From assembly GCA_016748015.1 (NCBI GenBank), contig JAAOMT010000512.1, forward strand, positions 1,037,757-1,101,756: 64,000 nucleotides of DNA, given 5' to 3'. A program made the translations under genes and the position numbers. Numbering within the stretch: the stretch's first letter is position 1; every line of letters begins with the position of its first letter. Shown one piece after another: positions 652 to 46,151 of this stretch. Origin of the DNA: Geosiphon pyriformis (Eukaryota; Glomeromycota; Glomeromycetes; Archaeosporales; Geosiphonaceae). The notes under the pieces are model-generated. The model was not told where the DNA came from and searched no databases. It worked only from the letters and a program-made list of their open reading frames with translations.

Positions 652-3570
652 ATGTCAACTTCTGACTCGAAGAAACGGATAAATTATTTCTATGATGGTG
701 TGTATTTTTTGGGCGCATTTTAGGCCAAAAGAATTTGATTCTTGATTTTTATGATGGATATTGATAAATTGAATATTGCTTCCGCTATATAGACAAAATT
801 GGGGATTATTCTCATGGTCCTGGTCATCCAATGAAGCCAATGCGAGTTAAAATGACCCATTCTTTGGTAATGAGCTATGGCTTATACAAAAAGATGGAAA
901 TTTACGTATCCTTTCACTATAATATTACCTTGAGAAACATATTTTGTTTTGATGCTCAAATTTGCTCCATATTCATCTTGGCAGCCTTAACTCATTATAC
1001 TATACCTTGTCTCCAGAGACCTCGACCAGGAACAATTGAAGAATTAACCCAGTTTCACACAGACGAGTATATTAAATTTCTGGGGAAGGTGACACCCGCG
1101 AATTTCGATGACTATTATCAAGACCAGGTCAAATGTGTGTATACACTCTTAAATTTTTTTATTTCATAAGGAGTTACTGATTTTGCCTTTTTATACATGA
1201 TTCTCGTATGACACTTAACAGTCAGTGTTGGTGATGATTGTCCCGTATTTGACGGTTTATTAGAGTATTGCCAAATCACTGCTGGTGGATCACTTGGTAA
1301 GTGATTAAAAAAATATCGTAAAGGTCACCTCTTTTGGTATTCAAATCGAAAAATTATATAATTTTATCCAGAGGGCGCGGCACGACTCAATCACAACCTT
1401 TGTGACATAGCAGTGAATTGGGCAGGTGGCTTGCATCACGCTAAAATGCAAGAGGCTAGTGGATTTTGTTATGTTAACGATATCGTGATAGCTATAATTG
1501 AATTATTAAGGTAGTCCTAATACTCGGTAACTTAATATTACTTCTTTTGAGAATACAATTTTACTTTAATTTTTGATTTACTACAGATATCATCCTCGTG
1601 TGTTATACATTGATATTGATGTTCATCATGGTGATGGCGTCGAGGAAGCATTTTATACTACTGATCGGGTCATGACTTTGAGCTTTCACAATTATGGTGA
1701 TTTTTTCCCTGGCACTGGGGATATCAATGTAATCTTTTATTCAAATGGACTTTTTCTAAATTTTGACTACATTCCTGTTATTAATGGAATATGACTTTGG
1801 TTCTGGTGATGAAAGGATATTGGCTATGGTAAAGGGAAATACTATGCAGTAAATGTCCCTCTGAGGGATGGCATCGATGATACAACTTATAAGACGATTT
1901 TTGAACCGGTTAGTAAGATATTACCCAATAATTAATTAATGAACCTCATAGAATTCCCATTTTGATAAAATTGGAAATTTATAATCCTGTCCTTTTAGGT
2001 AGTGACACATGTCATTGAATGGTATCAGCCGTCGGTAATTGTGCTTCAATGCGGAGCTGATTCACTTTCTGGTGATCGACTAGGAACTTTTAATTTATCA
2101 ACGATAGGTTATATTTTCGTCTTAATTTTGGTATCTATGCATATTTCAAACATCAATAATGAATAAATGAATTTGCATAAAACAGGGCACGGTGAATGTG
2201 TTCGGTTTGTTAAGAAGTTCAATATTCCAATGCTGGTATTAGGTGGTGGTGGATACACTATACGTAATGTTCCTCGATGTTGGGCATACGAGACTGCTAT
2301 AATAGTTGACAAGGATGTTCCAATGGGTAGTACGAATTTTTTGTTTTTTTACATTGCCTATTTTTATTTTTTCTCACCAATCATCTTAATAGAGCTACCG
2401 CATAACGAATTTTACGAATATTTCGGACCAGAATATACATTGCACACGACACCGAGTAATATGGAAAACATGAATTCTCCAGATTATCTCGAGGCAGCAA
2501 AGTAGCCTATGAGACTATTTTTATTGCTTTTATTGGATGCAGATTTTTGACTGATATATTCTCATTGGAATCGATCTTATATAGACTCAAGATTTTTGAG
2601 AACCTCGACAGATCGCGACATACACCTAGTGTTCAAATGCAAGGTTTTATCAGATTTCTTATAAAATGACATTCAATTATCTTTCATAAAAATATTCTAA
2701 CGAACTTTTTTAATGATGATAATATTTATTCACAGATGTGCCTCGGGATAGATATATGCTAGAAGATTATGATGAAGATCTGGAAGATCCAGATAATCGA
2801 AGAACACGTAATATAACCTTAAATCTGAATTCAATTTTTATTTAATTCTTTACATTATTGATAGCCTTAATCTTTTGATAGAACGATCATGGGATAAGCG
2901 TATTGTACCAGATAATGAATATGAAGATTCTGATGATGAAGAGCAAGAAAGTAATTCTCGAAGAGGACGAGTACCTTATATTCGTACATACCGATACAAA
3001 TTTTTAAGTGGTCAAGCAAAACTACAAGCCGCTAATACATCGGCATCCGCGGTAGCCGCAGACACTATAATGGGTGATGCAGAAAGATCAAGCTCGGCTG
3101 ATGCTGTAGTTCCACCAATACCACCATCTCCTCAAACCATGGCCCCGGGAATACAAGCCGAAGAAGAAAAAGAGGATGATAATGATATGGATGATGTGAT
3201 AGAAGAGGTCTTAGAGGCTACTGATATGCAAGTCGATAGTTCTTTTAATCCTCACTCAGTAGCCTTATACCCTATTGAAGAGACCAATGGGGTCCCAACA
3301 TCCTTTTCTTCTTCCTCTTCATCATCATTATCATCATCACCTTCACTTCTATCACCAATACCCACTGCTGAATCCGATTTGGTAGCGGTAAATACAGAAA
3401 ACACTACATCAACTTCCACAACTCCACCACCACAGTCCCTATCAACATCGCCTCCCCCAACACCCGTAGTGTCTGCTACAACCACCTCTTCCACTACTGT
3501 TCTTACTACAGATATTGTTACTACCACTGTTACTACAACAACTACTTCTCCTAGTAACATAATTCCTTGA
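652..3570 (+). CDS. class I histone deacetylase (Rpd3/HDAC1 type)
   Basis: Zn-dependent nuclear enzyme that removes acetyl groups from histone lysines, normally as part of Sin3-type corepressor complexes. Thirteen exons: 652-697, 793-905, 1017-1134, 1222-1296, 1372-1510, 1587-1728, 1816-1908, 1999-2107, 2186-2326, 2393-2501, 2585-2643, 2736-2807, 2882-3570; together 634 aa in frame. Visible family signatures are the start [19 protein letters not shown], the catalytic pair in [20 protein letters not shown] (His139-His140), the metal site [34 protein letters not shown], and the Gly-rich loop [16 protein letters not shown]. The conserved part ends with the acidic stretch [17 protein letters not shown]. 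After that come about 200 residues rich in Ser, Thr and Pro, so the protein is longer than typical Rpd3 (about 430-480 aa). The first ATG in frame with the family N-terminus was taken as start. AATAAA overlaps the stop codon (3570-3575) and may be the poly(A) signal. Confidence 0.95.
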
Positions 3571-4950: not shown

Positions 4951-5237
4951 ATGGCTTTGACCTTCTCGGATATCTTCAAATTCATCTTTGCCGTCATATT
5001 ACCACCCCTTGGTGTATTACTTGAAGTCGGCTGCACAGTTGATCTGTTGATTAATATTTTGTTGACAATCCTTGGCTATATTCCAGGTAAGAACAATTCG
5101 TAGTTTAAAGGCTGATTTTTGAAATTTTTCTTTTCAACTTTGATGTACTCTTGAAATACCTCTTGCTAAGATCCCCACAATTTTATTTATTACATAAAGG
5201 AATCATTCATGCACTTTACATCATCCTGAAATATTAA
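4951..5237 (+). CDS. PMP3/UPF0057-family plasma membrane proteolipid
   Basis: Very small hydrophobic membrane protein of the Pmp3 (stress-induced hydrophobic peptide) family, whose yeast member affects plasma-membrane potential and cation tolerance. Two exons, 4951-5086 and 5200-5237, joined by a GTAAGA...AAAG intron, give 57 aa. The family pattern is complete: an N-terminal helix with LPPLGVLLEVGC, then DLLINILLTILGYIPG, then the C-terminal GIIHALYIILKY. The second helix is split from its tail by the intron exactly at the conserved Pro-Gly. Two transmembrane helices are predicted by eye (about residues 8-25 and 31-53). The gene is easily missed because neither exon is long. Confidence 0.93.
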
Positions 5238-6301
5238 AGGCCGAACTCCAGAAGTCAATCAAGGATAGAGTGCCGAATAGCCTCACCAAAAATGAAAAGA
5301 TTAGGCAACGGGAAATGATTTATTGTGAGAAGAGATGAAAAAATAACTTTAATTTTAGTATTAAATATACTATATATAAATATTGACCTTTGAACTATCC
5401 ATTCTGTATTGGCAAGATGTAAGACAATAGTCTTTTTTCAATATAAATTTATTAATTACCGTTTGCTAATTAAATTAGCATCATGATTTTTGAATTTCGT
5501 GCATAAGCTCAACTTCTACCTTTAGTAAAAAAAAAGTCAAAAGTGAATATTTGTTGTCAACTAAATATTGCTTTTCCAAATTCGTGCCCCGCAGCTACTC
5601 GGCTATGAGGCATATAATCTGCATGCTTTCGATATGATCCTCTTTTCATGATTCAGGAAGGGGTCATTCGCTGAAATTATCTTTGCCACTTGGGTTTATA
5701 TTATTAAACGTACATTATAATTTCCTTCTGTAACGGACCCACTTTAATATCCATTTTAACCTTTTGGGTCTCGCTGTCGTCAATTTTGTGAGTCAAGGGG
5801 TAACTGTAACACATCAATAGTTAAGGCGATTCTTTCCTGCGTGCAAGCCCGCAATTCTGGTAGTTGTAATAGTGTGATGTAATGACTTACATAAATGGAA
5901 AGGAAGATGATGTGTTGGTGCCTGTATATTACGTCTAATAATCAAAGAAGCTTTCATCGGATACCTTTTACGTCGTTAGCTTAAGACATTTCACATCTTG
6001 TACTTATCTATGATATCTCTTGCCTTTTCCGCAACCAACTTCCCACGATGCAGCCATAACCATCACTATCCCACTACCAAGAAAGGTTACCTTTACGCCT
6101 GTGTCTCTAGCACCGAGATAATCTTAAGCAACTGACGAAGCCATTGATAGGAAGAGATAGCGAAAAAGGAGGGGGATATTTATTATCACAAGTTTGAACC
6201 TGATATTCATTATTTAAGCAAATGGTATTTATATGGGGCGTGCTGCAACAAAACCAGACAAAGTGAACATTTGACGTCACTTGGCATCTTTAATTTTTTA
6301 A
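5238..6301. other. intergenic region between PMP3 and the Mollicutes-like insert
   Basis: About 1 kb without a long open frame. From about 5580 to 6240 it is visibly richer in G+C than the flanks and contains CpGs, so it could hold an untranslated or short-exon gene, but I cannot assign one. The right boundary is the stop codon of the insert's downstream gene. Confidence 0.5.
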
Positions 6302-6915
6302 TTACTTTCCTTTAACCTCAATTTGAGCACTCTGCTGAGAATTCAATTTTTCCAATTGAGATTTTAATCGAGCCACTTCTTCCTTATAAGATTCTATTTC
6401 ATTAATCAGTTTTTGAGGAGTTAGCTTTTTTAAACGTTCAATCTCTGCTTCTTGTTGCTTAATTTTGTCTAATACCTCTTGCTTTTGTCTTTCATAAAAT
6501 CCTCATGAGCCTCTCGTTCTTCGTGAATAGTTCATTCAGCATTATTCAGTTGCTCTTGGAGAGAGTTTATTTGTCTTTCATAAAAAACAGGCATACTCTC
6601 CCTTTGATGAGGTAAACGAGGAAGTTGTTTTTCTTCTAGATTTTCCTTACGCCTAATGCAACGACAAAAAAGGTCAACATCTAATTTAGTTTGAAGTCTT
6701 CCACACCTTTCACATTTTGGTATTTGGTCATTCCAATACTTTGCCTCACACTCCTCGCAAACCACATCATCCGAAACATATTCACCACTATCCTTAACAC
6801 GACTTATTATTTGGCGAACAGATTTGTTATCCTCACCATAAAATTTAGAACAAAAATCACAAGTTTCTTTACTTTCGCTATCTAAATCTAAAACCACAAA
6901 ATCTAATTCTCTCAT
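6302..6915 (-). pseudogene. Mollicutes-like zinc-ribbon/coiled-coil protein (TGA = Trp), frameshifted
   Basis: Unknown function. ATG at 6915-6913; the upstream partner's stop (6917-6919) ends one base before it, a bacterial operon arrangement. The N-terminus has a run of CxxC pairs (CDFC, CEEC, CERC, then CRC), suggesting one or two zinc ribbons within about the first 85 residues, followed by a Glu/Gln/Lys-rich coiled coil. With the standard code it stops after NNAE, at 6532-6534. Reading that TGA as Trp continues into EWTIHEEREAHE. Near 6490-6505 the frame must shift by one for the coiled coil FYERQKQEVLDKIKQQEAEI to continue to a TAA at 6302-6304. Trp-for-TGA is the Mollicutes code. The frameshift may be real decay or a sequencing error. 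No eukaryotic intron is needed. Confidence 0.7.
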
Positions 6916-6916
6916 G

Positions 6917-7866
6917 CTAATTGGTTTTGATTTCTATTCTAGCAATTAGCTCTTGCTCTTGATTTTTGGCTTTCTCTACTAATTTTTGGAAACCAGTTTT
7001 TATCTCGGTTCCTAATTGGCGAAATTTATTCTGTTTGGTTTTTCTAGGTAGAGGAGGTAAAGGCTTGTCAACCGCATAGTGTAGTGACCTTTTTAATTCG
7101 CCAATTTGTGCCTCTTGTTCTTTGTTTTTCTTGCGAGATTCCTCCAACTTTTTTGAATTGTCTTCTAGTTCTTGTTGAAGTTTTTTAACCAACAATTCTT
7201 GCTCATGAGCTCTATCCCTTGCTTCCCGCAATCTCTTGGATTTTTCTTCGATTTCTCTTGCCTTGTTTTCCAAGTCTTCTCTTAACTTTGCTTTTTGAGG
7301 ATCATTTCATTCTTTACTAATTTCAAGAGCCTCTAAGTGGGCTTCAGATCTTAATCAACTTTCAATAATTTCAGCAATAAGACCTTCGTGCTCTTTGTTG
7401 CTAATTTTGTCTATTAATTCTTGAACTCAATTTTCATTTTTTTTCGTGTCTACGGCAGGAAAAAGTTTATCGTTTTCATCTGTTGAGATGAAATATTCAT
7501 AATATTCTTGTAAGATATCTGTGATGATTTTTTTAAAGTGTTCAGCTTGTTCTTTAAAAAGAGTTAGCCCTTCACTCTTTCAAGTCAATTGCTGCTTTTC
7601 ATGCTTTAACACATCAATTTCTCTGGAGTTTAAAGGCATTCTTTCAATACATAGTGAATTTATAAAGGGACTTGTCGACCTAACTTAACTGGGAAATTTT
7701 CACAAAATTTTGGTCAATTTTGCCCAGGATAATAAGTTAGTTGTTGTCTAATTTCTGCTGCAGTTAGATTGTTGTTTTTGTTAATCCCAAATTTTTCTTT
7801 TAATTGATTATTTTCTTCTACTAGATTTTTGTTTCTCTCTTCGAGTTCATTGATTATGTTTGTCAT
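6917..7866 (-). pseudogene. Mollicutes-like coiled-coil protein (five in-frame TGA read as Trp), frameshifted
   Basis: Unknown function. ATG at 7866-7864 follows an AT-rich leader and starts MTNIINELEERNKNLVEENN, a coiled coil. In frame, TGA occurs at + positions 7714-7716, 7580-7582, 7427-7429, 7355-7357 and 7307-7309. Each sits inside otherwise sensible protein (for example PGQNxPKF, NENxVQEL, IESxLRSE, SKExNDPQ, with x the TGA), as expected where UGA encodes Trp. A one-base frameshift lies near 7650-7680. The C-terminal half (7273 to 6917) is open in any code and is a long heptad-like Glu/Lys/Arg coiled coil ending in IARIEIKTN. Together with the zinc-ribbon gene after it, this looks like a two-gene bacterial unit lodged in fungal DNA. 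Confidence 0.72.
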
Positions 7867-7995: not shown

Positions 7996-9365
7996 CTATT
8001 TATTAATAGTGTCGATTGGTCTTGGACAGGTAAGATCTTTGAATTCATCTTGGACAAAGAGACAAATATAATTGTAAAGATATTTTTGCTGCTCATGTTT
8101 CATTAAAGGAGGGGACTGGAAATGATAAGGTCTTGGTTTTTTGTATGATTTTTAAAGCTTCGAGTTTACAGAATTTTAGTAGCTTGAATTCCTGGAAAGG
8201 GCCATTAGCCACTTCTTGAGCTTGAACCACATCTGGATTATCACTGGTGAAAAGGAAATGATGAAACCTTTGCAGACCAGGAAGCCTTTTAAAGTAAGTT
8301 TCCAAACCAATTATGATGTCAAGATATTAAGAACCTTCTTTACCATTGTAATGCCACGTTTTATTTAGTTTGGTGATATTAGACTTTTTAACTATGTCTA
8401 TTATATGATCTATACAATCTACTATGGTATTATAATAAAGTCTTTTAATCAGAACAAAGCTACTATTGCATTTGAATTTGGTATGACCTGGAACCATAAA
8501 ATTTAATTCAATACTTTCATAATAGTCAGCAATTACCAAATACAAGTAAAACCAGATAGTGGCATTGTTTTTGTCCTCCTGCATTGTCACAAGTAATCTT
8601 CAAGTGCTTCTCACCTTTATTCAATTGCTTAATTCCGTTAAAAACTAGGCTAAAGGTACCATTTGAATCTTTTCCAAAAAGTTCATTTTTATCCAGCATG
8701 TAATTGATTTGCTCACAGACTGCTTCATCTTGGATACCAAACAAGTGCACCTTGCAAGCACTAAAGTAATAGACTTTGCCAATCTGTTGATCTGAATGAG
8801 GTACATAAACATTCTGGGCTCAGTTATAACTGTAATGAGCAACTGTGTCAATGCTGCAATAGGATACCTTGTCTTTGGCCAGTGAAAAATTTTGTTCGAC
8901 GAGCTTTTTATGTTCTTCGGCTAATTTAGTATTTTTGTTATAATAGTTTCGCTCTAACTTGGCTTTAGATAAAAGCTTTTTATATTTCTTTAATAGGTCT
9001 TGGGCCTCTTCTTTTTTATGGGCATTAAATTGCAAGTTATTCCACAATTGTTGACAGATATCACACAAGTCAGTTTGAGAACTCATGATTTGAATATATG
9101 GAGTAAGCTGATACCATAATTTGCAAAATGCATCATACTTGAGGACACGTAATTTACTATCTTATTTTAGACCAGCCAAAAAGTAGACGTTGGCTAGTAC
9201 TGATCGCTCCTTTATCTATAGATCTGAGTTGAGTCATTAAGAAAATATCTTGTTCAGATTTTGCAATTCAGCAAATTCTGTTTTGAGCAGCTTGATTGAG
9301 CAACCACAGCTACAGCCTAGTTTTAAAAAACAGATAGCTTTCTTATATTTGTTCATAATTGTGTC
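7996..9365 (-). pseudogene. degenerate copy of a dispersed transposon-like gene family
   Basis: I recognise the pattern, not a named family: a cysteine-rich start (CFLKLGCSCGCS, about 9323-9288), then LKYDAFCKLWYQLTPYIQ, DLCDICQQLW, a Lys-rich helix, VHLFG, CDNAGGQ, and NFMVPGHTKFKCNSSFVLIK with a tail EFKDLTCPRPIDTINK. Proteins of this shape occur in many copies in arbuscular mycorrhizal fungi, and I infer a mobile-element origin. This copy is broken. The stretch between the Cys-rich start and LKYDAF is much shorter than expected, with two stops. A stop interrupts the frame after HYSYN (about 8820), and frameshifts occur near 8590, 8330 and 8100. The element may extend upstream to about 9720, where coding-like sequence persists. 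A short (AT)n tract lies at about 9373-9393. Confidence 0.6.
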
Positions 9366-9485
9366 ATCTACCATATATATATATATATATATTATGTACA
9401 GTTTGTCTGGTTTTGTTAAATTTTTTTTAACAGCACACATTAAAATACCCCTGTATATATGCCCATTTAAAAATGTAAGGAGCAA

Positions 9486-10380
9486 TTTTCTCGTCTTGTT
9501 CTTGTTTCAAAATGTTTCTGATGGTGCTGTAATTTTTTGGTTCCATAGTGGACTTGATGTAAATTAGTTTCATATTCTTATTTTTTATACAGAGATAGTC
9601 TTATATATTTGACCAGTTTGTTGTTGGTTCGTGCTCAGATAATTACTAATCTTTTGTGACATTGTAATGAATTGGTAAGAGGTCAAAGACTCTTCATTTG
9701 TAGACTTCTCTTTACTATTGTCCAATTGAATCTTTGTCCAAAATTGTCACATTACCACCAGAAAAATTTTTTTTGTTATGCACAGGCTTAAAAATTTTCA
9801 TTTGTTGGCTGTCTTTTAGATATACACCTATATCTCTTTTCTAATATGTGTTCTATTGGCACTTTAAAATTGGTTTTTTAAAACATTGACTGTCTTCTAT
9901 AGAACCTCAGCAACAGTTAACCACCTTTGCCATCATACTTAAGGCTTTTTTTAGTTTTAGTACAGCCTATTACTGTATTGAACAAGAAAGAACAAAAAAG
10001 GATACCAGATAATAAAAAGCTTCTGTTTATGGCCATACAGATATACTATCGTGTTAATGATCTTGAATATAAGTTTTTGTCATGTTATCAAACAATTAAC
10101 TTTTGCTTTGTACTTTTGATAGCATATAAAACATCTGAAAATGCTTTACTCTGAAGATAGATCAAGTTTAAGCTCACTAATTTTATTGTTTTAGACATAG
10201 AAAGGTTTAGATTTTCATGAAAAGAGTGGGCCAAGCCTTATCTTTTCACAAATTTCCAATAATAAATTTGTGTTAAGAATTAACCAAATATTTAATTCGG
10301 CCTTTAGTGAATCTTTTGTCAAGAAAAATATTTAATGAACAACAAAGTAACTGTATTTCTAAAGATTAGTTATATCCGAA
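9486..10380. other. AT-rich region upstream of the degenerate element
   Basis: Coding-like minus-strand fragments up to about 9720 (for example around 9500-9560, STMEPKNYSTIRNILKQEQ) may be the original N-terminus of the neighbouring broken element. From there to 10380 I see only short Lys/Phe-rich frames. A few CpGs remain (about 10050, 10298, 10377), after which they vanish. Confidence 0.4.
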
Positions 10381-13300
10381 TTTATTGTAAAAAGCAAGTT
10401 TATCTTAGTACAACAAATTCTGTAATATTTCAGAAATAAAGCCCTTTATAAATTTTGTCTTTGTTTGTTTAATAAAAACACTGTTGTCTTAAAGAAGTTA
10501 CTTCTGCTTATTGCTATTGCTTATCTTTATGTGATCAGAATTATGGTTTTTTCTACATGCAGAAAACCAATTAAAATTGTATTACTTACAAATAAAAGAT
10601 ACTATACAGTCACATTCTTGAAACATCAAGATTCAATTCTGTTAATAGAAGGATAATATTTACTTAAATTGGCCAAAAATTGGATCAAATAAACACTTTT
10701 AGTATATATAATTCTTATTTTATTAATAGTCTCTCCAGCTATAGTTAAAAGACTCTAAAGAGCAATTTTTAAACAGAAGGCAGTTGTAAATTACATATTA
10801 ATTAGTAATAATCTACTAAAAAATCTGTTGTATATAGTAATATAAATGTAAATTATTTTTTATTTTGATTTTTGAATGTTTTATTTACTGTTTATGTTTT
10901 TTATTTTATACAGAAAATAGCATCTCAAAAATAACTATAAAAAGGCAGTAAAACAGAATCTCATACTAGAAAAACTGAACAATTTCAAAAAAAATATTAA
11001 TCAGATTTTGCTATCTAAAGATTATATTAAAAACTTATTCAAGAGATTCAGCAAAACAATAGATATAAGCAACATAACTGAACTGAATTTGTCTATTTAT
11101 CTTAAGAAAATCAAAAACTTTAACATAGTACAAATATATAATGGCTATTTTAAATAATATCTCTACTTTTAATACTTTAGTTACTATCTCTTTGCAGAAT
11201 TCTGGTTTTAAAATAGGTTTGATTAAACAAAATAAAAAAAATGTAAATAATAATAACTACTGTATTATTATAACTATTTTATAGCAGATTGTTTAAAATA
11301 AACATAGTTTTTTCAATATAAAATAGCAATTAGTTTTTAAATAAAAGTCAATTATTAAACATTTAAAATTTTCTGTAATGTTATTTTAAAATATTTAAGT
11401 GATTTATTATTATAATTTCAGAAAAAATATACTTTTTTATGAGTAATTTAAATACTAAATATTTCAATCTGATAAAAATTTTCTCTTAAAACTATGATTT
11501 TAGAGAGCACAGTTTCTTAATTAATATAGTTTTAATTTCGAAAAATATGTTATTTTTAATTAAAATCAGATTTTTTTTTGGTTATTTTAAAAATTTATTC
11601 TATGGTTATATTAGTGGCACAGTATAGAAAGAGTTTAAATAAGTAAAAATAGTTACAATAAATTTATGATTTTTTGTAATATATAAATACTATTATTATT
11701 ACAAGTTTATAATACTAATTTTATTCTTATTTTTTTAGGTTTTTTTCACAAATATAAAAAAAGATTAATTCAAAAAAATAAAGTCTTTAACAATTATCAA
11801 TGCAATGAATAATCATATAATTTACTTAGTATTATTGAAAAATATATATATATTTATGATAAATATATAAAAAAATAAGATTTATAATAAAAGTTTGTAT
11901 AATATTATTCAGATTTTTTTTTGAATACATTTTATTTTGGCCAAAATAGTACAGCACTAAAACATTTAACAGTAAAAAGCCATGAAAAAGCAGACAAAAA
12001 AAGAACAATACAGTCTAAATTAATAGTTTTAAAATTTAAAATACCAAATATCTTGTCTTATAAATAAATTAGTAATAATTATTATTAATAAACAGTCTAT
12101 ATATGTAATACAAAAAATTAAAAAAAAGCTACAATAATCTTTACAGTCATTTACCAGAAATATATAGTACAAAAATAAGTAGTATAAACAAAATATAAAT
12201 GCTAATACAGTATTTTCAGATGTCAAAAATATAAAAAAAAAAAATTAAAACCAGAAGTTATTAATAAAAACTATTTAAGCTTTTATGTTTATTATAAAAA
12301 TGCTTATTGAATCAAAAAAAGTTCTGTAAATTATTATATATAATTATAATAAATATATTGTATTTAAAAAAATAATATTTATGAAAAAAAAGATAGTAAC
12401 AACAAAAATTACTAATTTTTTCTGGCTCTTTGTTTAACAAAATACAAATGACAATTAGTTTTAAAACTTTATATTCTAATATATATACTATTAATTGTAC
12501 TATCAAATATTATTTTAATTATTACTAATTTTTTATCTTTTGTTTAAAATTTATTTATTATCTTATAATAAAATCTTTGTTTACTACAGCTGATTATTAT
12601 TAACATATATAACATATATTATAAACAGTAAAATATTTTAACAGACAATGTAAATTGAATTACTAATTTTTATAAAACAAGAAAAAATAAACCAATCATC
12701 TTTAAAGCATTTTTTAATATAAATTATGTAAAATTTTTAATGAATTCTTATAAATTTTAGTTTGTGTAAAAGCTAATTTTGTTAATAAATAGACTATATA
12801 TTTATTAAAAAGAGTTAAGTATAAAAAAACTTTTATTAAGTTGAATTATGAAATAACAAAAAAAAAATATTATTATTATTAGAACTATACTAACTATGAA
12901 GATACCAATATTAAATTATTTGAAAATAAAGACACTAATTGTAAATTATATATTACAGATTAAAAATCTGATTAATATACTAAAACTTATATGAAAAAAA
13001 TTTTACAGTTAGAAATATAATAAATAAATCTTGACTATAAAATCAAAAAATTGTTGTAAAATCTGGATTCTAAGAACTATTATAAGTTAAAAAAGATTAA
13101 ATAAGAGATATTAGTCAAATAGCTTGAAGCTTTTGAGTTAAAAAAAGTGGTTACAAAAGTTAAAAGCTTATTGTATTCTTTAAATAAGGCTTTATTAACA
13201 ATAAATTTTATAAGCACTATTACAATTTTTCTAAATACAAATCTATTAAATAAAGCTATAAAAAAAAATTACATAAAAAAAATAAGACTTGAACAGTTCT

Positions 13301-13397
13301 GTTGTTTTTTCAATTACATTGCTCAACTGTTTAATTTTTTGTCTGTTTTCAAAATAAATAAATCTATTTTTAACAATTACTAAGTATTTTTTACATA

Positions 13398-13625
13398 AGA
13401 AAAGAGATATCAAATTTTTTACATTCTTTCTTTAAAGCAATTTTAAGTTCAATTATAGATTTTGGAAAGTCTTTATGTTTTTCTATATTGTCTTTTAATA
13501 GCTTTTAAATATTCTTAATTAGATTCAGATTTGACCAGTTAATAGTCATAATTTTATTTTCTGTTAATTATTTTTTGATATTTTTTATAATATATATTAG
13601 TGTATAGATTCTAGTTAACAACTTA
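13398..13625 (-). pseudogene. heavily decayed Tc1/mariner transposase fragment
   Basis: Minus-strand reading gives the C-terminal part of a Tc1 transposase with many transitions. The segment ENKIMTINWSNLNLIKNI then stop then KLLKDNIEKHKDFPKSIIEL matches the usual layout, in which a Trp-Pro-x-x-Ser-Pro-Asp-Leu-Asn-Pro-Ile-Glu-Asn block is followed by a Trp-Lys and a basic helix. Conserved Pro codons read as Ser or Leu, Glu as Lys and Trp as a stop: all are C-to-T or G-to-A changes. Upstream (about 13600) an in-frame stop replaces the second catalytic Asp, before NLYTNIYYKKY. No protein could be made. Confidence 0.5.
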
Positions 13626-14906
13626 ATTGCTTTCTAAAATGAAAGTATTTGCATAGTTATATCACAATTGAGAGTTTTATTTTCAAATAATTATTTCTTT
13701 TGATGTACAAATCAACTTTAAAATTTGTTAAAAGGTTAAATTTCTGTTGACTTATTTTATTCATTAGAATTTAACTTAAGGAACATTATTTTAAAGTAAT
13801 TATTTTCTTTGAACAAAAAAAATGGTTAAGCATATTATTTAAAATATATTAGTTTTTAATATTTTCACATTTTTGTAAATTTGGTTTTTAATATTGTTAA
13901 AATATAATTTTTAATTAATAATTATAAAATATAACTTTGTTGAAATTTTCTTTTGTTCTTGTAAAATAAGTTACTAATTTTTTAAATAATTTTTGTCTGC
14001 TTATTAAAGTACTAGATTTCCATAAAAATGGTTATTAATTTTATATTTGCCAAGTATAATTCTTTAAATTTTTTAAAATTCCAAATTGTTGTTTACAATT
14101 TATTAATAACATTTTAAACTTGTTATTTCAGTAATTGTTACTTTATATAAATTTCAGCTGATATGTTAATTTTATTTTGATAAATCTTATAAATTATTTT
14201 TATTTTATTTTAATAACTTTGGTGCCAAATATTTTAACATATAAAACAAATCTTTTATTTTGTTATCTTTTTAAATTAAATTAATATAGTAATTTTATAT
14301 AAAAAAACCAAATATTCTGATTTATGTATTTTTTTGTGCTTACAATATTGGCTCTTTTTTTTTATTATTTTTAAATATTTTCAGTTAAAAAATCATCAAA
14401 AATATGCAAAAAATAATATATTTTAAAAATATTAATTAATAAATTTAACAATGTTTCTTATTTGTAATATATTGAAAAATAATTTAAATATATGCTATTT
14501 ATTGTTTAATTCTTTATATTAATGTAATAAATGTTAAACTTTAAATACTTAATAAAACAATGACATAAAATTACTATCTTGATATTAATATATAAACACA
14601 AAAAACAAATTCAAAAATTTTTTATGTCAAACAAGCTCTTGCATTTTTTTAATATAGATAAAGAAATTTAAGTTTTTAAATCTTAATTTTTATATTTTTA
14701 TCTTTTAGCATTTTTTATAACTTATTTAATTTATTTGAATTGCTCTTACAAATTCTAAATTAAAAACAGATTTTAAAATATTTTAAAGATTTTAACAACT
14801 AAAATTGTTAAAATTAAATCAATATTTAACTAAAAACTATTTTTTATAATAAAATAAAATTTGATTAATTTTTGTTATTAAAAAGCTGTTAAGATTTCAA
14901 ATATAT

Positions 14907-15568
14907 TGTTATGGGTTGGAGTAACAAACTAATAGATAGCAAGAGAAAACAAGATTGTAGGATGATGAAAGGAATCAAAAGGAATTCAACTTTAAAGAGC
15001 AAATTAAATGAGCATGAATTCAATGTGCAAAATCAGTTTTATAAATTATCTCAGTTGTTATATTTTTAAAAAAATAACCAGGGAATTTAAAAGTAGAAAA
15101 ATAGTCTGTACTATTAACAAATAATCACACACTGGTATAATTCTATGCTTCATGTTGGCACTCTTAGAATTCAATATTAGGTATTAGATATACTCTTCAG
15201 TTACATTTTATTCAATAATTTTCAAATGCTACAATTATATATTTCAAGAAAAAGATAGAAAATAATCAACAAGTAATCTTTTATCTCAAGATGTTCAAAT
15301 ACTTGAAGGTAGAAAAAGAGAAATTAAAGATAAGAGAAGAATTGAAATGAAAGTTGTTATTTTATTTATTTTATTTTCTTGATTTCTGATATGCATTTTT
15401 ACAGCTAAGAGATTCATTGCTTATATAGCTATTAAAAATGGTCAATGATCAGGTCCATAACTAAGTCAATGATCAAGTCAATGATCAGATTAATGATCAG
15501 ATCAACAGTCAGATCATTAATCAGATCAATAATTACTATTTAAGAATAGAGTGACTAATTATATAACA
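14907..15568 (-). mobile_element. possible solo LTR (LTR-retrotransposon remnant)
   Basis: A 662-bp segment bounded by TGTTAT and ATAACA, the short inverted ends typical of LTRs. On the minus strand a TATATAAG box (about 15430) is followed by an AATAAAATG poly(A)-like signal (about 15210), in the order U3-R-U5. I see no target-site duplication next to it, no primer-binding site and no polypurine tract. It may therefore be a degenerate solo LTR, or the ends may be coincidental in AT-rich DNA. Confidence 0.35.
15440..15531. repeat. short degenerate tandem repeat of a TCAATGATCA-like unit
   Basis: About seven imperfect copies of a 10-15 bp unit containing ATGATCA or the variants AGATCA and AGTCA, lying in the upstream (U3-like) part of the possible LTR. 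Such units can be enhancer-like repeats of a retrotransposon promoter; that role is inference. Confidence 0.5.
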
Positions 15569-17725
15569 TCAGTGACTAATACATATGATAATTAATAAAA
15601 AGTATGAGTTTCAACCATAATAATATACTTGAATTATATTTAACACCATATATATTTCTCATAATTTATCATAATATAAAATTAGAAAAATATTTTATCA
15701 ACAAAAAATTAAATAATTTAATTATCTTTGATATCTTTTTTTTATTTTCTATATTTTCTTATGACTTAACATGTATTAATCATTCAAGTTGAAACAGATT
15801 ATTAAGAAATGAGTGAAATATTTACTTCTATAGTTTGTTTATCAAATAAATCAATATAATAATTAATAAAATTGTTTTGTCTTAACAAAAAATAGATAAA
15901 TACATATTAAATTGCTTTAAGATCAGAAAATTTAAGATAAAAATATAGTCTTATTTTTTTTGTTTTGAGAAAATTTCAAGACCTTTTTTCTTAACTAGTG
16001 TTTTTGCTAATATTTTTTTAATTGTCAATCTTTTTTTTTCTATTATTTATAGTTTTGAAAAAGTTACTAATTGTTAATTTTACTCTCATAACTACTTTAA
16101 TCAAATTAGTAAATTATGGATATAACTTTGCTTTTAGTTGGTTTGAATATCACAGCTCAGTAATCAATAGTATTATTGTATAATAAGGCTTTGACTTGTA
16201 GATTGCAATAGTAATATAGCAAACAATTTGTTTTTTTTGAATATATTAACAAATTTTTAAAAATACTTGCTTATATTTTGTTTCAGATATCTTTTTTGTA
16301 GTTTGGCTTTAATGTGTCACTTTCTAATATTTTAATAAAAATTGTAGAAAAAAGTCATTATTTTTTTGATTTTACATAAAAAAAGCATATAATAATTATA
16401 AACAGTCTTTTTTTTGTGAGCTAGCAACTCATAAAATAGCTTGTTGAGACTCTATAATGCACACTGACATGCTATTAATAGTGTGCTCACCAATAAGCAG
16501 TGGTATTTTTTACTGCCAGTGATTAATAGGGTAGTTAGTAACAAAAAAGCATATACAATATTGCTAAATCAATCAAATAGAATAAGTAAACTTATTTTAA
16601 AATCTTGTTTCTCTTTTAATACTTTCTGTTAAACTTTAAACACTTTAGAGTAGTGCTTATTAATAGTGTACAGTTTATTTTTATAATACTTATTTCTTTA
16701 TTTTCCAAATTTTTATAAAAAGAATCAAAAATTTAAGAACTTTTAAGTAAAGATATGTCTATGTTCTTCCAAAAAGCTCTGAATAATCAAGGCTAAATTA
16801 AAGTAAATACTTTGTAAGGCATGGTTTTAAGAACTACAGAACACTGTTTCTTGTTAAGATATTTTAGAGAATCAAGATAGTGACCTGCATAATGACAATA
16901 GGTTTAAGAAGTTGAGTACAATGAATGTTGTTAAAAAAGTAAATGTGTCAATTGTGCATTAGGATTTTTCAATTGGTTTTATCAATTGCTGAGTCCAAAT
17001 TAAGTTGCAATGTATTTAGATTGTTAGGTGAAAAAATCTTAAAACCTGAATTTTTTATGAATAAGCTTTTTGTTTATTATTATTTATTTTAAAATCTAGA
17101 TTGTATTATTAGTTATTCAAATTAACCAAATCAATAAGCATTTTAAATTTATTTTAGTAATAATATTGATTATTTGTATCAATATTAACTATAAAATGGT
17201 TTAAAACAGATAAATAATTTGAATAAACATAAGTCATATAAAAAAAAATTTTAATCTTTTATTTTACAAAGGTGAAAAATTTTAATTCTCAAGTTATTTT
17301 TAAATTATTGTGCTTTATCACATGCATTAAAATATATAATAAAGAATTTAATTTCTTGAATTTTTCAAAAATTATTAATATATTAATAATATATTAATAA
17401 ATAAAAATTTTTAATATATTTATTTAAATAATAATAAAATATAATTATAAACAATTGAAATATTTTTTTAGTTTTTAATATCTGTTTTGTATACAATTAT
17501 AATTTTTTTTTGGTTATTAATACACATAATATAATTATTTTTAAAATTATTGTTATTTTAATTAATTAATTGAAATAAAAGAAAAATCAAATCAATATAA
17601 ATCAATAAATTATAAAAAAACAAATTAAGCTAAAGAAAAAAGGTAGATTTTATTCATATTAAACAGTTAAATATGACATTATAGTAAAAATGTATTTTGA
17701 AAATTATAAAAATGAGAAAAGAACT

Positions 17726-20700
17726 CGTTTTTTGTACATTATTACAAATTTTAAATTTTGTTTTTAGCAATAACAATAGTAATTTTTTTTTCATTTAAAA
17801 ACTAAGATTACTAAAAAAATTGATAAAAAATAAAATTTATTAAAAGTAATTATTTTGAGTAATGAAAATGATACAGCTTTTTTCTTCAATTAAGATATTG
17901 GTAAGACTTTAAAAAAGTAATTAGTATTATATTTTTAAAATTCTAATTAATAAAGTAACAATAGTAAAAAATAATTGTATATTAGCATGGGCAATATGAT
18001 TAAAAAGTAGATATAATGAAAGTATTGGCATTAAATTAGGTAAAGCAAATAACAGATTAAATAAATAAATTACTGAATACACAAATTCCAACAAAAAGAA
18101 AAATAATCAGTGATAAAGCAAAGGGAGATTGAATTTGGAAAATGTGATTTGAAGTAAGTAATTTAAGATAAAATGAGAATTAATTCAATTGATTAATGCA
18201 ATTGTAAAATTTTAAAGCAAAAATAACAATCAACGTTGTATTCTCTATTCCTAGCTTGCTATTTGTTATTATATTTGGTGAACAATAACAAAGCAATAAA
18301 TCGTTACAATAAAAATTCCAAACTACCTTATTACTTTTCTCAGAACTAGCATATTTCAAATTGAAGAGACTTTGTTTTAGTTTTTTTGGTTTTTTATTCC
18401 GTTATGTTATCTTGAGTAAAATCCTCTTTTCTCTGTTTTTTTACAGGCCTGTGAAATGTTATCTGGCTTCAGAGTTAAGAGTTGTACTATAAGTGCACAT
18501 GACCAGTTATTCTCGCAGCAATCCTATTGGATATTTTTATAAGTATTTGGATAGTGGAAAACAACATAAATTACAAAAATTCATTGATTAACGACATCTA
18601 CTTTCTTTATTTTATTAAAAGTCTGTCAAAAGATTGCTAATCTTATGTTTTAGTCTGTAGAAGTGCTAGGACAAAAACAAAATGTTATTAGTCTTGTTAC
18701 ATAAAAAACTGTATGCTAATTGGTAATTCAGAAGAATGCATGATTAAAAACTGTTAATTATCCTATGGCTTTGACCATCATAGTTCATGATTAATTGCCT
18801 AGAGTACATATTATGTGTGCACAGTCACTTGTCAATGCCATTTTTGTCATAAATTGGATATTAAATGCAGAAGTCTCGATATCTAGAAGGCAACATGCAT
18901 CAAATACAATGCAGATGGCGTTGTGATAACCTCTACCCAAACTTGCCGTTAAAATCAAACGTCACGAAGCACATTTTCAACTCTTCATACCAGATATGAT
19001 GTCTTGATTAATATTTCGTAATCTATCATGAATCAAGGCATAGAAAATAGTTTCCCCCTTGAGAAGACCCATGAAAAATGACAAGTTAAAAGCTAGGTCA
19101 ACAATGACCTTTTAGATAATTCAAACAATGACTTTAATTCTCAATAAGATATTTTCAATTATTTCCAAGAAAAGAAAGAAAGCTTTGGCAATACAATCAA
19201 AAACGTCATATGATCTTTAGGGTGTGAAGTATTTAGGGATTTATTCATTTTCAATGGTTTTGAAATTTATCCGTTATTTATGCATTTCTAGTAACTTTGG
19301 CAAATGCAAATTAAGCATAAACCCGTTACATCTAATTGTTCGCCGCGCAATGGTGTTTCCAATAAAGTTTGCATGCAGTTATATGCTTGTTTATATGCAT
19401 ATACGGTATCTAAAAATCCACTTCTCCTTGTAGATCAAGAGTAGTTAGAGGAAGAAATATCAGCAAAACAAATAATCAACAAGCTCTACTCTATTTGAAT
19501 ACTCATTTAGTTGCAATGTTAAATTTTGAAACAATTGTTTAAAAATATTGGAATCGATAAAATAATTTTAAAATCTAGTTCTTTTCACATGGGTCAAATC
19601 GGGAATTAGGTTTTCCTGTTTGGATAATACAGAAGAATTTCCCACAATTGATACATATTAGGGAAGAAATAAAATTCTCATTATGACAGAATTTTCTCAA
19701 GCCCATGAACCATTATTTAAATTTTTGGTTTCTAACCCTGGTTCACCCAAATCGGAATTATTTTATTTTAGGCTTAATGTGATTAGCTTTTTAAAGAAAT
19801 TTCCAAACCAAAAATCTTTTTCTCAAAGAACGTGCTAGAAATCATTGATTTTAAATCTAACACTAATATTAACATGAATATCTCCAAAAATAAAGTATAT
19901 TTTTTTATTTGGAACCGGAATAACATATACACTCTTATTCGGAATCTCCAATCATTTTTAAATACAGAAAGTTGTCCAACAACTAAATTGCTAATAAGAT
20001 TTTATTTGCAATTGGTAAAACTTTAAATTTTGTATTAAACAATTAAATACTTTGTTGGATCTCTTTGAGCTGCTATTACTGCTTAAATTTAACATGATAT
20101 AATATCTTTGTTATTCTTTCTTAATATAATATTCAAGTTAATGGCTTAACTTTAGCTTATAGGTTTTGATTGAACTAAAAATCTGGATTTGAGCAAGCCA
20201 AACAAAAATATGTAATTCAAATTTTGCGTAAAATATGTTTGCAACCTTTAATTTGTGAAATTAAACATTTTTTACTTGGAACTAACCATTGTTTTTTAAT
20301 AACACATATTGCAAGATAAATATAGTATATTTTTCAAGTGTTTTAACATATTTATTTTCAGTTAAAACTATGTTTCACAGTTGTCAAAATACGTAGAAAT
20401 AACTATTTATCAATAGTTTTTTACTATATATTAATATTTATAATCTTTCTAAAACTGGAAACAGGTTGACTGCTGCAATAGAGGTAGTTGATGATATAAT
20501 CAGGTTTGCACGTTTTTCAATGCTCAGAAATTTGATTTCTTACCTTTTTGGGCAAATGAACACTTCAATAATATCTTTAAATAATACCTTTAAATTTTAA
20601 AAAGGGGAAAAATAAATTTAATTAAATATTTGAAAAGCGTTTTAATAAAATGATCCGAAAGTTAAGAATCCTTCCATTTTCGAAAAATACCCCTCATACT

Positions 20701-45289: not shown

Positions 45290-46151
45290 TTAGTATTTTG
45301 TTTGACCCCCATTTGCTTCAAGAATAGCTTGAACTCGACGTGGAATAGACTTGATCAAATTACGATAGTAATTTACAGGTATCGCATCCCATTCTTCCTT
45401 AACCCACTGTTCCAATTGTACAATATTTGAGGGTTGTGAATTACGTTGACAAATTTTAACTTCAATATATGACCAAAGATTTTCTATTGGAGTAATATTA
45501 GGACTTTGTGCTGGCCAAGGAAGTAATTCAACATTTGAAGAGGTAAGAAAAGAACGCGCGACTTTTAATGTGTGGATTGGTGCATTGTCTTCCTGAAAAA
45601 AAAACTTTTTTTTAGTTTTTTTTGCATGAAGTTTTACCGTAGGAATTGCATAATTAGCCAAGGTTTCGCGGTGTATAACTCCAGTAATATGACCAACCAA
45701 AGGAACTAAAGGACCCAAACCAACCCATGAAAAACATCCCCAAAACATGCGACCAAAGCTTTTTCTAACTGTGGCCGCAATACAATCCTTATGAAAGTCT
45801 TCGGAAGGTTTACGCCATACACGTCCAAATCCTGTAGTCCTAAATTGTGTATATGTAGATTCATCTGACCAAACAACTCGTTTAAAATCTTTTACTGTCC
45901 AATTTTCATAAGTACGAGCCCATTGTAAACGTTTTTCTTTATTTGATTTGAAAATTAATGGCTNNNNNNNNNNNNNNNNNNNNNNNNNNNNNNNNNNNNN
46001 NNNNNNNNNNNNNNNNNNNNNNNNNNNNNNNNNNNNNNNNNNNNNNNNNNNNNNNNNNNNNNNNNNNNNTCTCACTGTTTGTATGTCCTAACTTTATTGC
46101 TGAAATAATCCCTCCTTTTTGGTATTCAGAAAGTTCTTTTCCAAGACACAT
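45290..46151 (-). CDS. Tc1-family transposase (DD34E), interrupted by an assembly gap
   Basis: Cut-and-paste transposase. ATG at 46151 starts MCLGKELSEYQKGGIISAIK, the first helix of the N-terminal DNA-binding domain. The sequence is lost in the N run and resumes with the catalytic domain. The triad is visible: Asp in VVWSDESTYTQF, Asp in FFQEDNAPIHT, and Glu in SPNITPIENLWSYIE, with 34 residues between the last two. The C-terminus is ILEANGGQTKY then TAA. The frame before the gap does not match the frame after it at the given N count, so the gap length is arbitrary. Outside the gap I see no stop or frameshift, so the gene may be intact. Confidence 0.9.
45964..46069. other. assembly gap (N run)
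   Basis: About 106 undetermined bases inside the transposase gene. Frames spanning it with long X runs are artefacts. Confidence 0.99.

Follow-up and report, generated by a model that had tools for sequence, protein, structure and literature searches.

The window analysed here, a stretch of 64,000 nucleotides from Geosiphon pyriformis (C366:1037757-1101756 of a 124.7 Mb assembly in 406 contigs), carries a PMP3-like exon at 4951-5103 and, beyond it, a block of minus-strand reading frames in which TGA recurs in-frame. The sequence-only reading of this DNA had counted six such codons, and we were able to confirm that number: the frames 7866-7660, 7639-6917 and 6915-6469 hold one, four and one, respectively, and a seventh lies in a frame-shifted tail at 6535-6302. 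That reading had also described two adjacent frames set one base apart. The spacing stands, with TAG-C-ATG joining the frame at 7639-6917 to that at 6915-6469, but the frames are not intact; alignment with relatives on contigs C220 and C294 resolved them as two cargo genes in four pieces, following deletions of 10, 2 and 11 bp that are private to the window copy. Cargo gene B', which encodes a coiled-coil protein, comprises a main part (6917-7639, minus strand; 4 TGA, 0 TGG) and an N-terminal piece (7660-7866, minus strand; 1 TGA) that is separated from it by the 10-bp deletion. Cargo gene C comprises a 5' part (6469-6915, minus strand; 1 TGA, 1 TGG), whose product has a CxxC zinc-ribbon-like N-terminus and a coiled coil, and a coiled-coil 3' part (6302-6535, minus strand; 1 TGA), whose frame was moved by the 11-bp deletion. 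Intact relatives were identified for both genes: a 312-codon frame with five TGA and no TGG for B' on C355, and frames of 223 codons (three TGA, C355) and 214 codons (six TGA, C406) for C. The two genes are spaced 1-14 nt apart (TAGCATG in the window, TAGCGATG on C294, 9 nt on C355 and about a dozen nt on C406), which is operon-like and suits bacterial translation. Pfam and NCBIfam profiles returned only coiled-coil noise for the cargo proteins, and a search of phages, plasmids and IMG/VR for relatives of the element found nothing related. A scan of genome contigs gave only a Desulforudis "relative", a short and weak coiled-coil match (45% over 40 residues) that was set aside.

Using the block as a genome query, we found relatives on other large contigs, and alignment of their flanks revealed a sharp edge of homology near 6229-6234, with similarity continuing through the block, an adjoining transposon relic and beyond. 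At this edge, on the plus strand, lies a terminal inverted repeat (TIR; 6234-6270, TGGGGCGTGCTGCAACAAAACCAGACAAAGTGAACAT) that forms one tip of the window element, abuts flanking sequence ending in ...TATTTATA, and has 0 mismatches to the 37-bp family repeat TGGGGCRTGCTGCAACAAAACCAGACAAAGTGAACAT, which is found inverted at the opposite end of complete copies. The block and the relic thus belong to one DNA transposon, extending from 6234 to about 13400, which comprises the conserved 37-bp TIR, a DUF7869 transposase, cargo genes and a small gene B whose product has an NLS-like tail. The relic, previously described as separate and eukaryotic transposon-like, turned out to be this element's own transposase, with TGA at a conserved Trp position.

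The window copy of the transposase gene is decayed. Its main part (8111-9191, minus strand; C366:1045867-1046947) was identified by a protein match to an intact copy on C355 and has TGA at the conserved SYN-W-AQN site, while its 5' end (9185-9424, minus strand), recognised by BLAST to the C294 and C355 copies, contains an internal TIR-like segment, an inverted repeat, at 9394-9417. The DUF7869 profile (PF25273) scores 31.1 bits against the window copy and 59.4 bits against the C355 copy, both above the Pfam cut-off of 26, and the motifs CDNAGGQNKNN and GHTKF are invariant. With regard to an RNase H-like (DDE) fold with catalytic acidic residues, an AlphaFold2 model of the protein had a pLDDT of 34, and a sequence search of the PDB with the transposase found no relative. 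We read DUF7869 as a putative transposase domain on the basis of its association with TIRs and the dispersal of these copies. Long DUF7869 frames apparently without stops (C258:351142, C346:1351592 and on C370) resembled standard-code relatives, but at least two of them, those on C258 and C370, adjoin cargo written in code 4 (TGA = Trp), and the great length of the frames may derive from masked runs of N.

Adjacent to the transposase is a remnant of gene B (9466-9606, minus strand; MKLIYIKSTMEPKNYS...), whose intact copies encode a protein of about 100 aa that ends in a basic, NLS-like stretch (PRKKRK, PRKRRK or RKKRK). The orientation and place of gene B vary among the copies L013, L040 (on C370) and L051: in some it is inverted with respect to the transposase, while in others it occupies the opposite end, a pattern resembling the flipping of a terminal segment. 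One subfamily has other cargo, absent from the window, with HAD-like motifs (IIADWDECL, FDIFIDD) and a best fold match to the 3' phosphatase of T4 Pnkp (prob 0.54, E 0.12); several copies of this subfamily have TGA as their sole stops, up to six of them. In L040, at oriented positions 1-700, a masked run of N separates the element copy from a protein-kinase-like ORF directly beside it. The remainder of the window element, its second half (9720-13404, unstranded), is AT-rich (GC 0.196), degenerate and 75% identical to the C220 element, whose second half is likewise AT-rich and degenerate. A long AT-rich stretch occupies about 10000-18500 of the window (GC 0.14-0.24); the portion up to about 13404 is element sequence and recurs at C220, C283, C331 and C401. 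A search for the far TIR of the window copy did not find it, and it was probably lost in AT-rich decay.

Elsewhere in the genome the family is well defined. A 26-base core of the TIR has 57+52 = 109 genomic matches with up to 3 mismatches, versus 0 for a reversed control, and the tip is identical in about ten copies. Three complete elements of 7.2-8.6 kb have the TIR at both ends (C355:46144-53995, C294:293663-302256 and C309:282801-289996), and the dispersed copies have common termini and unlike flanks. A 2-bp duplication fits the flanks of all three complete elements (TA, TA and TT) and is not significant; a 4-bp duplication fits C355 alone (TATA). Facing pairs of TIRs 0.4-0.55 kb apart (C81:37691-38113, C174:78342-78893 and C370:2169519-2170059) resemble MITE-sized derivatives, which suggests a degree of movement within the nucleus or of internal deletion. 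On C220 (L010), the transposase gene is split by a 2.27-kb insertion at oriented positions 1208-3475, where the flanking homology overlaps by about 10 bp, which points to a second element nested there and flanked by duplicated target sequence.

Within these fungi, the code-4 genomes known are those of Mollicutes-related endobacteria (MRE). MRE contigs are known contaminants of assemblies from arbuscular mycorrhizal fungi (AMF), and MRE sequence in fungal assemblies has been treated as contaminating contigs (PMC11423566); a chimeric contig was also one of the two explanations first offered for the block. However, relatives of the transposase are found at about 50 places, spread over about 40 contigs of up to 2.1 Mb, many copies stop at the identical TIR, and a search of the assembly for bacterial rpoB returned nothing above cut-off. 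Among SSU rRNA candidates in the assembly (5 of 277 scored), the sole scored match was fungal 18S and no MRE 16S was seen. Given these two results, MRE contigs do not account for the copies. A chimera at the window is effectively excluded, and we regard bacterial contamination as highly improbable.

The codon usage of the family establishes the code in which it is written. TGA is read as Trp in every Trp-containing transposase and cargo gene of the element. At five conserved Trp sites in 32 transposase copies, a set in which the locus C309 is present twice, we counted 78 TGA, 51 TGG, 0 TAG and 7 TAA, and each of the sites is TGG in at least one copy; the 16,557 other transposase codons include 23 TGA, 22 TAG and 65 TAA. 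Since TGG mutates to TGA and to TAG equally easily, the absence of TAG against 78 TGA excludes chance and bears out the earlier assignment of TGA to Trp. Many transposase copies have no other stop across about 480-600 codons. On C355, a 602-codon transposase frame with three TGA and the 312- and 223-codon cargo frames are open under code 4 only, and the first in-frame TGA of this intact transposase falls at codon 85 of 584. These data bear on whether the family could be an ordinary standard-code transposon in which TGG became TGA by decay, through C-to-T or RIP-like mutation. Copies such as those on C220, C355b and C295 are heavily decayed and have many stops, yet decay should have produced TAG from TGG as often as TGA. 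Together with the long frames free of further stops and an omega of 0.11 (see below), this leaves the decay explanation with practically no credence, and a standard-code element with random stops is ruled out by the codon counts.

Next, we asked under which genome's translation the copies had evolved. A codon model under code 4, fitted to 12 well-preserved transposase copies, gave an omega of 0.112, and fixing omega at 1 cost 828 units of log-likelihood (lnL -10208.9 vs -9380.8). Differences by codon position among the transposase copies were 0.155, 0.099 and 0.413. Terminal branches make up much of the transposase tree, with omega near 0.08, and the two copies nearest in protein differ by a dN of 0.021 and a dS of 0.278, which indicates that the terminal branches themselves evolved under selection. 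Gene B gave omega values of 0.07-0.23, and pairwise values for gene C under code 4 were 0.18-0.30 in most pairs and 0.60 in one. Purifying selection has acted strongly on the element in a genome where TGA encodes Trp, and its copies are dead under the nuclear code. The low dN/dS, on a tree of mostly terminal branches, implies that TGA was being translated as Trp while the copies diverged, and that little of their history was passed as dead DNA in the nucleus; the straightforward reading is that the nucleus repeatedly sampled a diverse, living pool of code-4 elements. Decay following insertion can be seen in the window and C220 copies, whose cargo is about 94% identical and whose frameshifts are private to each, indicating that each decayed after it had inserted.

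It could be argued instead that the family is an autonomous transposon resident in the nucleus, where UGA would be read as Trp by a suppressor tRNA or through partial recoding. Consistent with this, copies that are intact and under purifying selection lie in nuclear DNA, at about 50 places, the DUF7869 transposase is of eukaryote type with a GC content closer to that of the host than to that of MRE, and introns are present in the second half of some elements. Set against these points, in the host genes of the window Trp is TGG (59 codons) and in-frame TGA is absent, and a mariner-like element there likewise uses TGG only; a tRNA scan of 12 element-bearing loci and the window found no tRNA in any of them; the tandem ORFs, with 1-14 nt between them, are suited to translation in bacteria; and nuclear copies of DNA transposons are not normally found with terminal-branch omega near 0.08. 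We therefore consider nuclear recoding unlikely, while giving it some weight. The mariner-like element, a Tc1/mariner-like transposase ORF at 45290-46087 (minus strand; 10 TGG, 0 TGA), serves as a standard-code control within the same window.

Our favoured reading, which we hold to be probable, is that the family is a code-4 bacterial transposon, likely of MRE (Ca. Moeniiplasma type), that has entered fungal nuclear DNA in many independent insertions. The proposal of bacterial DNA transferred to the nucleus thus holds in that code-4 DNA is present in the nuclear genome, but what is found is a TIR-bounded family at about 50 places and not a single transfer. MRE are most plausibly the donor. The GC content of MRE is 29-33% (PMC11423566), a range with which the cargo (GC 0.29-0.35) is compatible, whereas the transposase (0.41-0.42) lies outside it. 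The GC4 of intact transposases (0.32-0.46) exceeds both that of host genes (0.27-0.32) and that of the element's own cargo (0.16-0.31). The elevation of transposase GC and GC4 above host genes and cargo argues against a simple, long-term home in MRE, and neither a eukaryote-type transposase nor an intron-bearing second half is what one would expect of a bacterial element; if the bacterium acquired the transposase recently from a eukaryote, that could account for the high GC of this gene.

Code 4 is not unique to Mollicutes, and the donor might instead have been another code-4 genome, whether from mitochondria or one of their plasmids, or from a protist that reads TGA as Trp. We judge this quite improbable. 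The intronless, almost contiguous ORFs fit a bacterium, and a protist donor would have had to pass the element dozens of times to an obligate root symbiont. Mitoviruses of AMF use UGG only, and UGA(Trp) in the host mitochondria is said to be rare (PMC6316171); a mitochondrial or mitovirus origin is disfavoured.

In complete elements, the interval from gene B to the far TIR spans 3.3-4.9 kb (C355, C309 and C294). The second halves of the C355 and C309 elements (GC about 0.41) encode a related protein in a standard-code gene, with GT-AG introns at identical positions and Trp as TGG, and the half on C294 (GC 0.38) weakly resembles the C355 version at the protein level (26% over 68 residues, E 5e-4). 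Relatives of this gene are found near element parts at C346, C132 and C257, and others are located elsewhere. At least some elements therefore hold genes for two expression systems between one pair of TIRs. We put forward only tentatively, and with more doubt than belief, the idea that the transposon is "bilingual" and moves back and forth between the two genomes of one symbiosis, with one half an intronless operon in the bacterial code and the other a standard-code, intron-bearing fungal half; if this were true, each half could be expressed in one compartment only. A plainer alternative is that nuclear copies captured a host gene.

Under the favoured reading of a bacterial transposon entering the nucleus, the transposase, gene B and cargo proteins would be made in the bacterium from operon-like, intronless ORFs. 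Element DNA, perhaps together with the transposase and the gene B protein, would then reach the nucleus, and the basic NLS-like tail of gene B could help to bring transposase-bound DNA into it. Integration would occur at AT-rich, TATA-like targets. The nuclear code-4 copies, being untranslatable, would be dead on arrival for self-mobilisation and would subsequently decay.

Transfer of genes from endosymbiont to nucleus is usually seen long afterwards, when the gene has already been recoded. The data presented here suggest that an endosymbiont has passed DNA to the nucleus of its host on many occasions, and here the deviant code acts as a built-in tag for donor and direction. As many copies look recent, the rate, route and fate of such transfer may be measurable in the oldest mycorrhizal symbiosis, and a transposon, not passive leakage of DNA, would be what carries the traffic. 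Annotation pipelines that assume the standard code fragment or miss such genes, which may consequently have been overlooked in other arbuscular mycorrhizal genomes. Our search of open-access journal papers found no report of a code-4 transposon in an AMF nucleus.

Several known systems resemble parts of this picture. Naito 2015 and Torres-Cortes 2015 reportedly describe gene exchange from fungus to MRE, and the partners here, as inferred, would be the same. The transfers described between them involve single genes moving from fungus to MRE (PMC10507103), and a survey of R. irregularis found MRE-derived genes absent among its bacterial acquisitions (PMC5982333); in the present case, movement would be from MRE to nucleus, repeated, and by transposon. 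Other DUF7869 (PF25273) proteins compare with the one described here through a profile match above cut-off, and the copies here are TIR-bounded and dispersed, but this element differs in being TGA = Trp-coded, cargo-bearing and intact in a genome unable to translate it. Bacterial transposable elements in eukaryotes, exemplified by IS607 and TnpB-Fanzor (PMC3627910, PMC10711439), are likewise mobile elements that crossed between bacterium and nucleus; those transfers are ancient and nucleus-adapted, whereas here there are dozens of recent, diverse copies in the donor code that cannot be expressed. Finally, NUMTs and Wolbachia-type nuclear insertions similarly bring DNA in a foreign code into the nucleus, where it is dead and decays. 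Passive insertion with arbitrary, non-recurring boundaries was rejected for the present family, as many copies end at the same TIR: unlike those insertions, the boundaries of this element are set by its terminal repeats, and the same TIR-bounded element recurs.
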